From the NCBI RefSeq assembly GCF_028689785.1, contig NZ_JAQVCN010000008.1, positions 1 to 64,000 of the forward strand: a stretch of DNA of 64,000 bases. Direction: 5' to 3'. Under the pieces are notes generated by a model, which had not been told where the DNA came from, ran no database searches, and was given only the letters and a program-made list of their open reading frames with translations. A program made the position numbers and the translations under genes. This document shows, one piece after another, positions 17,367 to 21,800 of this stretch. Every line of letters begins with the position of its first letter. Within the stretch, counting starts at the first letter, position 1. The stretch comes from Zoogloea sp. GTDB lineage: Bacteria; Pseudomonadota; Gammaproteobacteria; Burkholderiales; Rhodocyclaceae.

Positions 17367-17386
17367 AAGCCGCTGTTCCGGGAAAA

Positions 17387-17409
17387 GGCGGCTCAGGCCG
17401 CCTTTTTTT
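17387..17409. terminator. Bidirectional terminator between grxD and the nucleotidyltransferase gene
   Basis: GGCGGC, loop TCAG, GCCGCC and seven T terminate grxD on the plus strand; AAAA on the left gives a T-run for the minus strand. The TGA stop of the convergent gene lies in the loop. Confidence 0.9.
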
Positions 17410-18493
17410 CGTCCATGGGGGGGAGCGCTTCCGGCTTGGGCGGGAAGAGGGCCTTGTGGGCAAGGTGGTAGGCCAGCAGCAAGGGCGGCATGCGCAGCCA
17501 GTGGGCGCGAATGTAGAGGGCCTTGCGGGCTACGGATGTGAAGCGATCTGCGGTGCTGGGGTGCTGGGGCCGCAGCATCCGGCTGTACAGCAGATCCAGC
17601 AGGCGCTGACCTGCATTGCCTGAGCTGCCATTTCCCGCCTGTTTGCGGATGCGTGCCGGGATCGGGGTGTCGAGCAGACGTTCCGTATAGCGCAGGGCGA
17701 GATTGAGAGGGCCGGAGAGTTGCAGCCGCTGGGCCCGCGCAAGGAGGGCGTCCCAGGCTGCATCGTCCCGGCCCAGGTGTTTCAGGAGCAGATCCAGGTC
17801 GGTAAGGTCGCGCAGCAGGTTGTCCGGCTCGCCTTCATGGAAGAGGTGGGAGGCGCTGTGCAGGATCAGGTCTTCCAGGGCCAGGGTGCGGACGCCTGGC
17901 AGGTCGGGGATCTCCACGCTGGCCTCGATGAGCAGCCGCGCGTCGGGCTTGAGGCGGGCCGTGGGGGGCAGGATGGTGTGGTGCACATCCAGGGTGGTGC
18001 CTCGGAAAACATGGCGCATGGCCGGCAGCTCGTGCATCCAGCGTCGGTAATAGCGTTGGTCGTAGGCGTCGGTGACGCTGCTTTGCCAGCCGGTGAGCAT
18101 CAGCGCTGATTCAGCCGTGTCCAGGCGTTCGTGGGGGACGAGGATATCGATATCAGCAAACAGCCGCCCTTGGGCGGCAGGCAACCGGCCGGCCACATAG
18201 GCCGCCCCTTTGAGCAGGATCAGAGGAATCTCGTAGGGGGCCAGCGCATCGCGCAGCAGTCGGGCTTCGCGACGGATCGAATACTGCTGCTGGGTCGCCA
18301 TGATGGCGCCGGACTGCAGGTGATTGCGGGGGCGCCGGGGAATGTCGGCTTCCAGCCCGGCGGCACACAGCCGCTCGTAGAGGCGGCCGAGCAGGTTGGC
18401 GTGCCGGGTCTGGCGGACAAGCAGATCCCACTGGGCGGGGGAGAGCTGCCGGACGCTGTGCGGATCGCGCAGGGCTGCGAGCAGGTGGTTCAC
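17393..18493 (-). CDS. Nucleotidyltransferase-family protein of the HprK-related cassette
   Basis: A 366-residue protein of the uncharacterised nucleotidyltransferase family (NTP_transf_5-like). The core reads ILLKGAAYV followed by LFADIDILVP, with the metal-binding pair Asp114 and Asp116 of the polymerase-beta-type fold. A third acidic or His position is seen around TLDVHHTI. The C-terminal half is helical and rich in Arg/Leu. Its start overlaps the stop of the HprK-related kinase gene by four bases, so it is the last gene of a coupled cassette. Related enzymes occur beside HPr-kinase-like and PqqD-like genes, including in some lasso-peptide clusters. Substrate unknown. Confidence 0.8.
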   Translation of the reverse strand: MNHLLAALRDPHSVRQLSPAQWDLLVRQTRHANLLGRLYERLCAAGLEADIPRRPRNHLQSGAIMATQQQYSIRREARLLRDALAPYEIPLILLKGAAYVAGRLPAAQGRLFADIDILVPHERLDTAESALMLTGWQSSVTDAYDQRYYRRWMHELPAMRHVFRGTTLDVHHTILPPTARLKPDARLLIEASVEIPDLPGVRTLALEDLILHSASHLFHEGEPDNLLRDLTDLDLLLKHLGRDDAAWDALLARAQRLQLSGPLNLALRYTERLLDTPIPARIRKQAGNGSSGNAGQRLLDLLYSRMLRPQHPSTADRFTSVARKALYIRAHWLRMPPLLLAYHLAHKALFPPKPEALPPMDEKKAA

Positions 18494-19404
18494 GCTTGCT
18501 CCCCGGCAAGTTGCTCGAAAACGGCAATGGCATCATCCAGCCGGCTGTATTCGAAACTGAAATTTCGGCACTGATCGACGGTACGGCCGACAGCCTCGAA
18601 GCCCCGGGCGCCAAGAATATGGTAGTTCATGGCATTGTCGGCCAGCTGCATGAAGGCGGCTCCATTGCCCATGGGCGTGAGGCGGGCATCGGCTCCGGCT
18701 TGGTAGCGGGGCAGGACCATCCAGGCAGCGCGCGTTGGCGTGTTGACGGCCTCGACGCTGGCCTGCGTGGGGGCCATCAGGGCCACGGTGCCCTTGGTTG
18801 TGTCGAGCACGGGCCGGGTCAGGAAGGCGTCCGGTGCATAGTTGCGGATGATGTCGATGGAGGCGTTCTTGAGGCTCACCGGGCGTGCCAGCCCCATCAG
18901 TTCGCCAGTGTCCAGGCGAATCATGGTGAGCTCGTCTGACAGCAGGCGCCAGCCGCGATTGACCAGCGCCGCGCACAGGGTGCTCTTGCCGGAGCCGGGT
19001 GGGGCAGGCAGGATGGCCGCCCGGTTGCCACGCGCCACTGACGCAGCATGGATGACCAGGATATGCTGGCTGTACGCGGTGATGCACCAGTTCAGCCCCC
19101 ATTCAAGCATGGGCAAGGATTGATCCCGAGGGAGGGGGGTGAAGGGCTCGATGGCGTCGACGATGAAGCGGGCCTGGGGGCGTAGCCAGCGCCGCAGGCC
19201 GTGGCCTGGCTGGATCGCCACGTGGAAATCCACGAACCGGGTGTTGTCGATCAGCGGGTGGTGGGCGTAAAGGCGGGCCAGCTCGCCGGCGATTTCCGGA
19301 ACGCCGCTCTGTAGCCGGCAGTTGAAGGGGCCGGCGGCCAGGCGAATGCCGTCACCGGCCAGACGTTCGCTGAACTCTGCGGGGGAAAGCGCGCTGACTT
19401 TCAA
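18490..19404 (-). CDS. HprK-related kinase (HPr-rel-A type)
   Basis: A 304-residue protein distantly related to HPr(Ser) kinase/phosphorylase. The Walker A motif PPGSGKSTL has Lys140; a following SDEL segment (near residue 157) resembles the HprK catalytic acidic motif. It lacks the HPr kinase C-terminal signature in standard form and no ptsH gene is nearby, so ordinary PTS control is unlikely. The start is taken as TTG 19404, which overlaps the TGA of the PqqD-like gene (TTGA); a longer frame upstream is read through that gene. It resembles the family described as HprK-related kinase A, which travels with a PqqD-like protein. Confidence 0.82.
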   Translation of the reverse strand: MKVSALSPAEFSERLAGDGIRLAAGPFNCRLQSGVPEIAGELARLYAHHPLIDNTRFVDFHVAIQPGHGLRRWLRPQARFIVDAIEPFTPLPRDQSLPMLEWGLNWCITAYSQHILVIHAASVARGNRAAILPAPPGSGKSTLCAALVNRGWRLLSDELTMIRLDTGELMGLARPVSLKNASIDIIRNYAPDAFLTRPVLDTTKGTVALMAPTQASVEAVNTPTRAAWMVLPRYQAGADARLTPMGNGAAFMQLADNAMNYHILGARGFEAVGRTVDQCRNFSFEYSRLDDAIAVFEQLAGEQA

Positions 19405-19715
19405 TGCTGTGTGGCCTGAATCAGGCGGGCGTCGAGCAGGGCTTCCAGGGCAATTTTGACCTGGGCCCTGCATTCGGCAGGGTCTGCGTCCGGTTCTTCT
19501 TGCAGGACGGCCTGGCTTAATGCGGCTTCAGAAAGCTGTTGTCCAGGGGTCGAAAGCTGGTCGAGGATAAAGCGGGTGATGGGGGCGAGGAGAAGCGTTT
19601 CTCCTGCATGGGGGTCAAAACGCACCCAGCCCTCGTCGACACTTTTCCAGAGAATGCTGGGCAGTGCGTCGAAGAGGGCGTCGCAGGCAGAGTAGTGAAT
19701 GCCGGCAGAGGGCAA
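19401..19715 (-). CDS. PqqD-like protein of the HPr-rel-A cassette
   Basis: About 104 residues if translation begins at TTG 19715; no ATG exists in a suitable place, and the frame is open further upstream to 19832. The region ILWKSVDEGWVRFDPHAGET followed by LLLAPITRFILDQL has the pattern of the PqqD winged-helix fold, which in peptide-modification systems binds a leader peptide. The protein ends four bases inside the HprK-related kinase gene. It lies directly after the Tat-like exported protein, only 17 bases apart. The start is uncertain. Confidence 0.72.
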   Translation of the reverse strand: MPSAGIHYSACDALFDALPSILWKSVDEGWVRFDPHAGETLLLAPITRFILDQLSTPGQQLSEAALSQAVLQEEPDADPAECRAQVKIALEALLDARLIQATQH

Positions 19716-19732
19716 ATGCGCTTGGCCGGAGC

Positions 19733-20275
19733 TCAGGACAGAACGTAATCCAGGTAGGCTTCGACTTCGGCGGCATCCCACGAGTCGCCGGCACTGGCGG
19801 GGTAGGCGCCACCGATCACGCCCAGGTTCCACATGTCCTTGACGGTGGCCGCAGGCAGGAAGCTGCCGGCTTCGGCGCTCAGCAGGGCGGCGACGATCTT
19901 GGCATGCACGTTGGTGTTGCCCTTGGCCAGTGCCTGACCGAAGGTCGTGATACTCGGATCGATGGAGGCATTGAAGTTGGGCGGGGCGAAAGGCCTGTCC
20001 TTCTGCTCGATGGTCGCGTTGGTGTTCCAGTAGTTCACGCCGTTGAGCTTGGGCGCGCAGGGGGTGGTGCCGTTGCGGCTGAAATTGCCGGAAACGGAGA
20101 AACCCGACGGCAGCTTGCAGTTGGCAGCGAGTACCGGGGTGCTCTTGAGGGCGAGCAGAACCGGAGCACCGACCAGACCGGTCTGGATGAGTTTGCGGCG
20201 CGTGTTCTGGGAAGCGCTGACACCGGCTTCGGTCGTGCGCTGCTCGGCAGAATTTTCGGGGTGTTCCTGATTCAT
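19733..20275 (-). CDS. Tat-signal-bearing small exported protein, candidate cassette substrate
   Basis: A 180-residue protein of unrecognised family. A polar N-terminus (1-25) leads to a twin-arginine-like signal, NTRRKLIQTGL, then a hydrophobic core and PVLAA at 48-51, a plausible signal peptidase site. The mature part has only two cysteines (53 and 73), a few tryptophans, a segment SITTFGQALAKGNTNVHAKI and a C-terminus DYVLS with serine as the last residue. A good ribosome-binding site (AGAGG, about ten bases upstream) supports ATG 20275. It is the first gene of the cassette with PqqD-like, kinase and nucleotidyltransferase genes, so it is either the modified substrate or an exported partner. 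Confidence 0.75.
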   Translation of the reverse strand: MNQEHPENSAEQRTTEAGVSASQNTRRKLIQTGLVGAPVLLALKSTPVLAANCKLPSGFSVSGNFSRNGTTPCAPKLNGVNYWNTNATIEQKDRPFAPPNFNASIDPSITTFGQALAKGNTNVHAKIVAALLSAEAGSFLPAATVKDMWNLGVIGGAYPASAGDSWDAAEVEAYLDYVLS

Positions 20276-20326: not shown

Positions 20327-20400
20327 GGCGGACCTGGCTTTCGCTTGTATGACCTATGCCCGCTCTTGGCTGATATTCTTTAAGCAAATCCTGTTCCAAA

Positions 20401-20479: not shown

Positions 20480-20502
20480 GCGTGTCAAAAAAATCGACAC
20501 GC
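20480..20502 (-). terminator. Hairpin after the Ser/Thr kinase gene
   Basis: GCGTGTC and GACACGC pair around a loop that contains a T-run on the minus strand. It lies 18 bases past the kinase stop. Because the T-run is in the loop rather than after the stem, its strength as a terminator is unclear. Confidence 0.4.
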
Positions 20503-20519: not shown

Positions 20520-21800
20520 CTAAATGCTGGCGATGCGGCTGTTCGCCAGGGAGAGCCGGGACGACAGGACTTCCAGGAAGCCCTTGTAGAAATGCATCTG
20601 GCACAGGGCAGAGGCGCGCAGCAGGGCAGGCGCGCGGATGGTGAGGATGCGCGTTTCGGCGGTGGCCTCGACCGAGGCGGTGCGTGCGCCGCGACCAGCG
20701 GCAAACAGGGCCATCTCGCCAAAACAGTCGCCAGCACTGAGGACGTTGAGAAGATGCCCCTTCTTGACGATGCGCAGCGCCCCTTCAATCACGAAGCAGA
20801 AGTAGTTGCCCGGTTCGCCTTCCTTCATGACCACGGTGCCCGGCGCAAAGAGCTTCCATTCGGCGAAGCGGACGATCTCCCAGATCTCGATGTCGCTGAA
20901 CTCCCGGAAGAAGCGGAAGGCACGCACGCGTTCGAATTTCTCGCTGTCCGGCGGCTCTCCACGATCCGCCGTGAGGCTGCGGTTGCGGTAGGCCTGGGCG
21001 AGATCATGGGAGAACTCCATCCAGGTGCCGTAACGTTCGGAGATCTCCCGGCGCATGGCGCGGCCGACGATGGCGTTGAGCTCGGCGGGGATCTCCGGCC
21101 GGATGCTGACCGGGGGCGGAGCCTCGTGGTGGGCGATCTGGTACGCCATGTTCACGTTGCTGGTGGCGTCGAAGGGCAGCCGGCCGGTGAGGAGCTGGTA
21201 CATCACCACGCCGAGGGAGTAGATGTCGGTGCGATGATCTACCGGCATCTCGCGCACCTGCTCGGGCGACATGTAGGCCGGTGATCCGAAGCCTGCCACC
21301 TGGGTGGTCTCGCTGGCGGTGAACAAGGCGGCGCCGAAGTCGGAGACCTTGATGTCCTGGCCTTCCGGGGTGGTCAGCAGGATGTTGGCGGGTTTGATGT
21401 CCCGGTGCGTCACACCCTGAAGGTAGGCGTGATCGAGGGCCCGGGTGCATTTGAAGATGATCTCGATGAGCCGCTCGAAGGGCAGCAACTGATCGGCGCG
21501 GGTGAAGGCTTCGAGGGTGCCCCCGGGGATGTACTCCATGACTACGTAGGCATCGTGGTCGTCGATCACCGCATCGTGGATCTGGATGATGTGCGGGTGC
21601 TGGAGCTTGCCGGCGAGGGCGGCCTCGTTGAGCAGCAGGTGGCGATAGAGGGCGCTGCGTTCACTGCCGCGCAGGGCTTCCGGGTGGAGGCGCTTGATGG
21701 CTACCTCCCGCTGGGTGAACGGATCGAAGCCAAGATAGACCTCGCTGGTGGCACCTTCACCAATCAGGCGGCTGATCTCGTACTTGCCGATCCGTTCCAT
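20520..21800 (-). CDS. Ser/Thr protein kinase fused to a cyclic-nucleotide-binding domain
   Basis: A 426-residue protein with two parts. Residues 7-270 form a Hanks-type kinase: Gly-rich loop LIGEGATSEVYLG, Lys36 in VAIKRL, HRDIKPANIL with catalytic Asp134, SDFG at 153-156 and an APE-like SPE near 180. Residues about 295-410 form a cNMP/CRP-like effector domain, with the phosphate-binding-cassette-like segment GDCFGEMALFAAGRGARTASVEA. There is no membrane segment, so it should be cytoplasmic and possibly controlled by a cyclic nucleotide. ATG 21800 is the family start. It follows argH by ten bases and lies upstream of the modification cassette on the same strand. Confidence 0.92.
   Translation of the reverse strand: MERIGKYEISRLIGEGATSEVYLGFDPFTQREVAIKRLHPEALRGSERSALYRHLLLNEAALAGKLQHPHIIQIHDAVIDDHDAYVVMEYIPGGTLEAFTRADQLLPFERLIEIIFKCTRALDHAYLQGVTHRDIKPANILLTTPEGQDIKVSDFGAALFTASETTQVAGFGSPAYMSPEQVREMPVDHRTDIYSLGVVMYQLLTGRLPFDATSNVNMAYQIAHHEAPPPVSIRPEIPAELNAIVGRAMRREISERYGTWMEFSHDLAQAYRNRSLTADRGEPPDSEKFERVRAFRFFREFSDIEIWEIVRFAEWKLFAPGTVVMKEGEPGNYFCFVIEGALRIVKKGHLLNVLSAGDCFGEMALFAAGRGARTASVEATAETRILTIRAPALLRASALCQMHFYKGFLEVLSSRLSLANSRIASI

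Follow-up and report, generated by a model that had tools for sequence, protein, structure and literature searches.

We describe here a four-gene operon in the genome of Zoogloea sp. (contig NZ_JAQVCN010000008.1, positions 1 to 64,000, hereafter the window) that encodes an exported protein with a twin-arginine (RR) leader, a PqqD-like protein, an HprK-related kinase of the HPr-rel-A group, and a nucleotidyltransferase. As read from the sequence, the operon is preceded by a 17-nt motif with a sigma-54 promoter, an arrangement known from PEP-CTERM (exosortase) genes; this is new and suggests a job for an enzyme set that had been catalogued but left unexplained. The account that we favor, with somewhat better than even confidence, is leader-guided modification of an exported matrix protein, encoded by one operon of the PEP-CTERM/exopolysaccharide regulon. 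The modification would be phosphorylation, perhaps nucleotidylation or glycosylation. An earlier description of this DNA, the first-pass annotation, included neither the PEP-CTERM-type promoter nor the exosortase link nor the differing mature domains behind the leader.

The four coupled minus-strand genes run from 20275 to 17393, and their coordinates, given in the first-pass annotation, were confirmed from the sequence: a gap of 17 bases is followed by two 4-base overlaps, TTGA and GTGA. The promoter elements and genes are as follows (classes of the exported protein are defined below).

20483..20499, minus strand: 17-nt dyad TGTCGATTTTTTTGACA, candidate site for PrsR (enhancer-binding protein), part of the sole composite match in the window
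20383..20398, minus strand: sigma-54 type −24/−12 site TGGAACAGGATTTGCT, 84 nt downstream of the dyad and 107 nt upstream of the ATG
19733..20275, minus strand: exported protein, class I, ATG to TGA, 180 amino acids (aa), last residue Ser; RR leader at about residues 1 to 51, then the mature domain
19401..19715, minus strand: PqqD-like protein, a possible leader-binding element, TTG start, 104 aa; a Met codon is absent from the printed frame
18490..19404, minus strand: HprK-related kinase A, TTG start, 304 aa, P-loop PPGSGKST
17393..18493, minus strand: nucleotidyltransferase NTP_transf_5 (PF14907), GTG start, 366 aa, invariant Asp pair and a third Asp

The same set recurs in most loci that hold an HprK_rel_A kinase and is therefore more than a chance grouping. 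In a phylum-wide sample of 398 genomes, 61 carried the kinase over the cut-off, and after two loci at contig ends (G246 and G230) were left out, an RR-leader protein accompanied the kinase set in 53 of 59 assessable loci, once on the opposite strand. By the first-pass annotation's own test, absence of the exported protein from most kinase/PqqD loci would have counted against its reading; the protein was present in most of the sampled loci. Among 60 genomes of relatives (25 with the kinase over the cut-off and 35 without), a profile of the exported family matched 24 of the kinase-positive genomes and 1 of the kinase-negative ones, once per genome except in G001, which had two matches, one of them cut off. 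The matches in G040 and G050 were confined to the leader part, the sole kinase-negative match (G007) adjoined a contig end, and the missed kinase-positive genome (G013) carried another RR-leader protein at that position. With the window protein alone as the query, 19 genomes were matched, namely, 18 of the 25 kinase-positive ones and G007. An iterated profile found a member in each of 60 named loci, three of them partial; many of these loci are from Zoogloea or form close pairs and are therefore not independent events.

The exported gene is usually the first of the set. A nucleotidyltransferase gene lay beside the kinase gene in 25 of 25 relatives, in 59 of the 60 named loci (the remaining locus is cut), and in 48 of the 61 phylum-sample loci; a PqqD profile match was likewise found in 48 of the 61, both phylum-sample counts being limited to the fetched stretches, several of which end too early to judge. 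When 14 loci were rechecked for PqqD, 3 had a profile match, and 8 of the other 11 had a small, well-placed frame that was PqqD-like by eye at best. At one locus (L185, in G040), the order differs: the RR-leader and PqqD-like genes follow the nucleotidyltransferase gene instead of preceding the kinase gene.

Profile searches agreed with the enzyme identities that the first-pass annotation had assigned. The PqqD-like protein scored 26.7 bits with Pfam PqqD (cut-off, 23.4), the kinase scored 385.6 bits with TIGR04352 HprK_rel_A (cut-off, 200) over profile positions 2 to 280 of 280, and the nucleotidyltransferase scored 184.6 bits with PF14907 NTP_transf_5 (cut-off, 31.2; E = 3.2e-54), its best Pfam match. 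HPr kinase proper (TIGR00679) was ruled out for the window kinase, with 14.3 bits versus a cut-off of 240, and by sequence alone, HPr kinases matched it only at E values of 0.69 and worse. Its predicted model (predicted local distance difference test [pLDDT], 95) matched phosphoenolpyruvate carboxykinase (PEPCK) in a Foldseek search (E = 2.8e-7) and, lower, HPr kinase 3tqf (E = 3.1e-4; probability, 1.00), and by this model the kinase has the HprK/PEPCK fold of P-loop kinases. The His, Lys, Asp, and Glu of the presumed kinase active site were invariant in 128 of 128 aligned rows, and the nucleotidyltransferase had Asp at three positions in 116 of 116; from these alignments, both enzymes look active.

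Folding control exists for Tat (twin-arginine translocation) substrates, and the kinase, by its TIGR04352 score, invariant residues, and fold, is the firmest part of the set. Both points would suit a narrower account in which only phosphorylation matters, the Ser kinase controlling folding or export of the RR-leader protein while the nucleotidyltransferase has another task. We hold this to be improbable, given the invariant Asp residues of the nucleotidyltransferase and the counts above that place its gene beside that of the kinase. The nucleotidyltransferase also gave matches to AbiEii, sub-threshold in Pfam (20.4 bits versus a cut-off of 22.5) and weak in PADLOC (E = 0.0015), from which a toxin-antitoxin or defense module built on an AbiEii-like enzyme might be proposed. 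Such a module is very improbable: NTP_transf_5 is the best Pfam match, the other three proteins had no PADLOC match at E ≤ 0.1, and neither the exported protein nor the PEP-CTERM-type promoter fits it.

The exported protein itself matched no Pfam family at E ≤ 1 and only one NCBIfam model, at E = 0.16, and the partner family as a whole likewise yielded no Pfam or NCBIfam family. The family alignment (A1) comprised 45 of 56 exported sequences (that of the window and 55 references), many rows being from the same species as the 60 relatives; a second alignment (A2) comprised the window together with 38 named loci out of the 60. At E ≤ 1, members of the family matched five models in Pfam and eleven in NCBIfam, each with 1 to 4 of the 45 members and some of them toxin-named at E values of 0.008 to 0.02; all were taken as chance. 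The AlphaFold2 model had a mean pLDDT of 70, with ten-residue blocks over residues 81 to 180 at 78 to 90. No solved fold matched it (best Foldseek E, 5.6), and a profile search of solved-structure sequences with the family returned only E values of 0.9 and 1.3.

By their mature parts, the partners of the kinase fall into classes. Class I comprises the window protein and those of the beta- and gammaproteobacterial named loci; class II comes from genomes of other classes of the phylum and has a C-W-x-S motif at its end; and class III is family f63, with C-F/Y-A-S-L-Q at its end, whose members in the RR-leader census were recognized by eye. A few further proteins were left unclassed. Class I is nearly invariant at leader residues S45 and P47 and at C53, S57, S62, and W83 of the mature domain; the second Arg of the RR leader is present in 75 of 75 class I rows. 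One locus appears to contain a second class I exported protein (L125:7945-8802; class I mature profile, 86.3 bits).

Of two profiles built from class I, that of the leader matched 24 of the 26 proteins in class II and 2 of the 9 in class III, and that of the mature part matched 0 of 26 and 0 of 9, respectively. The strongest background matches listed for the leader profile all fall, judged by their positions, at exported genes missed by the filter. Classes I and II would be expected to show just this pattern, a common leader over mature parts without detectable sequence similarity, if the enzymes read the leader; the link of the leader to class III is weak. A Tat signal alone could account for part of the pattern. 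On the kinase tree, the three class labels require two changes only.

As for the residue that might be modified, the first-pass annotation had pointed to a C-terminal Ser. A Ser stands at the end of 8 of 114 exported proteins (6 of 76 in class I, 2 of 26 in class II, 0 of 9 in class III, and 0 of 3 unclassed), and with this count, the C-terminal Ser was abandoned as the common acceptor. All 26 class II proteins have Ser at the last position of the C-W-x-S motif, where the filter allowed Ser or Thr, and the corresponding Ser is present in 9 of 9 class III proteins; because the class expressions contain the C-terminal Cys-x-x-Ser, its presence in classes II and III is partly circular. By eye, a possible C-x(2,3)-S motif was noted in all classes.

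The control region of the window operon is of the type that precedes PEP-CTERM genes. The window −24/−12 site agrees with 10 of 11 consensus positions. Sites with at least 9 positions preceded 60 of the 113 exported genes counted, versus 2.6 expected from shuffles, and occurred in 5.4% of 484 other upstream regions taken as a control; the motif comparison used the 80 loci with a sigma-54 score of at least 8. The portion of PMC1569441 that deals with PEP-CTERM gene promoters describes an upstream 17-nt motif 1 with the 3′ end TTTACA, which averages 63 nt before the sigma-54 site, and names PrsR as the proposed activator. The window dyad fits this description in its 17 nt and its 3′ end, the spacing here being 84 nt.

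We searched for a composite of the 17-nt motif followed, 30 to 105 nt on, by a −24/−12 site. Because its matrices were written after the motif comparison was seen, they are tuned to these promoters, and the less dependent part of the result consists of the matches before PEP-CTERM genes and the window-wide scan. The scan of the 64-kb window, both strands, returned one match, at the four-gene operon. Over the 1.07 Mb of the 60 named loci, the search gave 65 matches. The exported gene had a match just upstream in 48 loci; of the other 17 matches, 15 (14 distinct genes) preceded proteins with a PEP-CTERM-like tail, as judged by eye. The window's own genome had the composite at 10 of 16 PEP-CTERM loci, with up to 2 mismatches in the dyad; a match at an eleventh (L204) was not counted because it looks poor. 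According to the relevant portion of PMC9850573, an RpoN-dependent PEP-CTERM gene of Aquincola, pepA, has a role in floc formation, with the motifs TGGCAC and CTGCTT.

The gene content of the genomes points the same way. The window genome (G000) carries an exosortase (TIGR02602; E = 3.5e-79), 16 TIGR02595 matches, and PrsR (TIGR02915; 763.6 bits, over the cut-off). Among the relatives, exosortase was present in 24 of 25 kinase-positive versus 15 of 35 kinase-negative genomes, and outside the genus in 10 of 10 versus 7 of 27; PrsR over the cut-off was found in 24 of 25 versus 9 of 35. Fisher values for these contrasts take no account of kinship. In the phylum sample, exosortase over the cut-off occurred in 30 of 61 kinase-positive versus 37 of 337 kinase-negative genomes, including 13 of 13 of class I and 12 of 12 of the f63/f96 group. 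At the sequence level, there is good support for control of the class I sets by a promoter of PEP-CTERM type.

A number of results weigh against leader-guided modification under this regulon. At the threshold used, 12 of the 60 named loci lack the composite, two of them being cut at contig ends, and it is absent from class II (0/26) and class III (0/9) loci; exosortase over the cut-off was found in just 5 of 36 class II-type genomes. The regulon link therefore covers class I and a few near relatives. No exported protein could be found in 6 of the 59 phylum-sample loci (G128, G140, G081, G183, G325, and G271). The link through the leader is not equally strong in all directions: the profile from class I reaches just the two class III proteins mentioned above, that from class II matches 20 of the 76 class I proteins and none of class III, and that from class III matches none outside its own class. 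The Tat model TIGR01409 matches 2 of the 45 family members even at E ≤ 1, the window PqqD-like protein falls under the cut-off of TIGR04353 (PqqD_rel_X; 31.1 bits versus 35), no single acceptor residue was found that aligns across the classes, and the modification itself is so far only deduced.

This last point would suit a different account, to which we give perhaps one chance in a handful or slightly better: the kinase and nucleotidyltransferase would have a small molecule or exopolysaccharide precursors as substrates, with the exported protein as an unmodified matrix partner from the same operon and regulon. PrsR/sigma-54 control suits any matrix gene, and at two of the loci where no exported protein was found, the upstream genes are, by eye, nucleotide-sugar dehydrogenase-like (L144) and glycosyltransferase-like (L176). 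A PqqD-like partner and a leader common to classes I and II over unlike mature domains are, however, better explained by leader recognition, and the usual first position of the exported gene also speaks against a bystander role.

We regard the gene set and its exported partner as real, and we infer the modification of that partner and its kind. In the mechanism of leader-guided modification, the four genes would form one operon of the PEP-CTERM/exopolysaccharide regulon, under PrsK/PrsR with sigma-54, and the exported protein would be the substrate. In the cytoplasm, the PqqD-like protein may bind the RR leader and present the exported protein to the HprK-related kinase, which would phosphorylate a conserved Ser; in class I, S57 or S62, which lie just past the expected signal cleavage site, are more probable acceptors than the C-terminal Ser. 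The nucleotidyltransferase would next act on the phospho-Ser, adding a nucleotide or a sugar phosphate. The modified protein would then be exported, probably by Tat, lose its leader, and join the extracellular matrix or floc. Six of seven class II-type loci checked have a reading frame of about 570 to 760 residues between the kinase and nucleotidyltransferase genes, and the three that were scanned (L143, L170, and L173) encode tetratricopeptide repeat (TPR) and sulfotransferase domains (PF13469; E = 2.4e-45 to 5.9e-52); in other class II loci the two genes adjoin directly. The long intervening frame was seen in L143, L170, L172, L173, L178, and L180.

A broader proposal, which we offer tentatively and hold to be distinctly less probable than the modification of the window protein, is that these loci constitute a second route to matrix proteins beside exosortase sorting. 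This route would resemble that of ribosomally synthesized and posttranslationally modified peptides (RiPPs) at protein size, with a PqqD-like chaperone reading the export leader, a PEPCK-fold kinase phosphorylating the precursor, and a nucleotidyltransferase extending the phospho-Ser to a nucleotide- or sugar-phosphate link before export. Since different clades of the kinase tree have different mature domains, the machinery would on this proposal be a general decorator of exported proteins, perhaps with sulfation as a further step in those class II loci that have the TPR-sulfotransferase gene.

The nearest known systems share parts of this arrangement. In lasso-peptide tailoring systems, the leader is recognized by a PqqD-like element. 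Among the results that PMC9266682 reports for tailoring kinases and nucleotidyltransferases, lasso-peptide kinases require a His-Lys-Asp-Asp set; PadeK phosphorylates the C-terminal Ser of the lasso precursor; and in pseudomycoidin, PsmN, a nucleotidyltransferase homologue, is reported to add a hexose to the phospho-Ser made by PsmK, a host enzyme acting after nucleotidylation not being excluded there. These systems (PadeK and ThcoK; PsmK and PsmN) are similar in pairing a nucleotidyltransferase homologue with an HprK-like kinase that has His, Lys, Asp, and an acidic residue. They differ in that the partner here is a protein whose mature part, after the RR leader, has about 130 residues and lacks a conserved C-terminal Ser. 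The lasso-kinase parallel drawn in the first-pass annotation is supported in part: the kinase model has the PEPCK/HprK fold, and its invariant His, Lys, Asp, and Glu resemble the lasso-kinase set, whereas a C-terminal Ser as acceptor is not supported. Among the four operon genes, there is neither a lasso cyclase nor a leader peptidase; the neighbors were not profiled.

With the PEP-CTERM/exosortase (EpsH) system under PrsK/PrsR, as far as PMC1569441 sets out its promoters, the operon shares the 17-nt motif and the sigma-54 arrangement, and the same genomes carry exosortase and PrsR. It differs in its enzymes, a kinase and a nucleotidyltransferase, and in its exported protein, which ends in ...VEAYLDYVLS and has no PEP-CTERM tail (PEP motif, transmembrane helix, basic tail). 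The kinase and PqqD-like protein show a weak likeness to ScmC (E = 3.6e-4) and ScmD (E = 7.7e-4) of the SynChlorMet cassette but lie far under the cut-offs (20.0 of 125 bits and 19.6 of 100 bits, respectively). HPr-rel-A is also among the nearest systems (TIGR04352 and TIGR04353, a PqqD family peptide chaperone): the window has the same kinase family and the same kind of PqqD partner, and the catalogue names the enzymes, whereas neither Pfam nor NCBIfam gave a family for the exported partner. Searches of the open-licence literature found no paper on the HPr-rel-A family names, one paper on PEP-CTERM with PqqD that mentions each a single time, and nothing on-topic among the 10 listed of 116 papers that contain two of exosortase, HPr kinase, HprK, and nucleotidyltransferase.

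The chromosomal site of the set was also compared between genomes. Two features flank the operon in the window.

20523-21800, minus strand: Ser/Thr protein kinase gene just upstream of the cassette, its C-terminal part cyclic-nucleotide-binding-like by eye
17383..17409, minus strand: terminator-like hairpin GGCGGC-CTGA-GCCGCC-TTTT at the operon end, read from the sequence; the same hairpin is present in L236, the empty site of G005

In Zoogloea, the four-gene set sits between the protein-kinase gene and grxD. The upstream protein kinase had one match at E ≤ 1e-100 in each of 15 same-genus genomes, whether or not the cassette is present. G005, which lacks the set, has the protein-kinase gene, 26 bases, the shared hairpin, and then grxD; the sequence ahead of the hairpin is similar to the 3′ end of the nucleotidyltransferase gene. 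In G013 (L189 and L238), the same protein-kinase neighbor is followed by a cassette whose kinase belongs to another lineage and whose exported protein is different, as though the whole cassette had been exchanged at this site. By this comparison of sequences, the cassette appears to be gained and lost as a whole unit. The nearest named locus, from a Zoogloea metagenome-assembled genome, has a kinase 95% identical to that of the window.

The HPr-rel-A enzymes have had names, and we found no function for them in the open-licence literature. Tying them to a specific exported protein, a leader, and a PEP-CTERM type of promoter makes a testable hypothesis of their role. The setting, that of Zoogloea with activated-sludge flocs and an exopolysaccharide matrix, is of practical importance. 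If the mature protein does carry a phospho-linked group, leader-guided modification would widen from short peptides to exported proteins.

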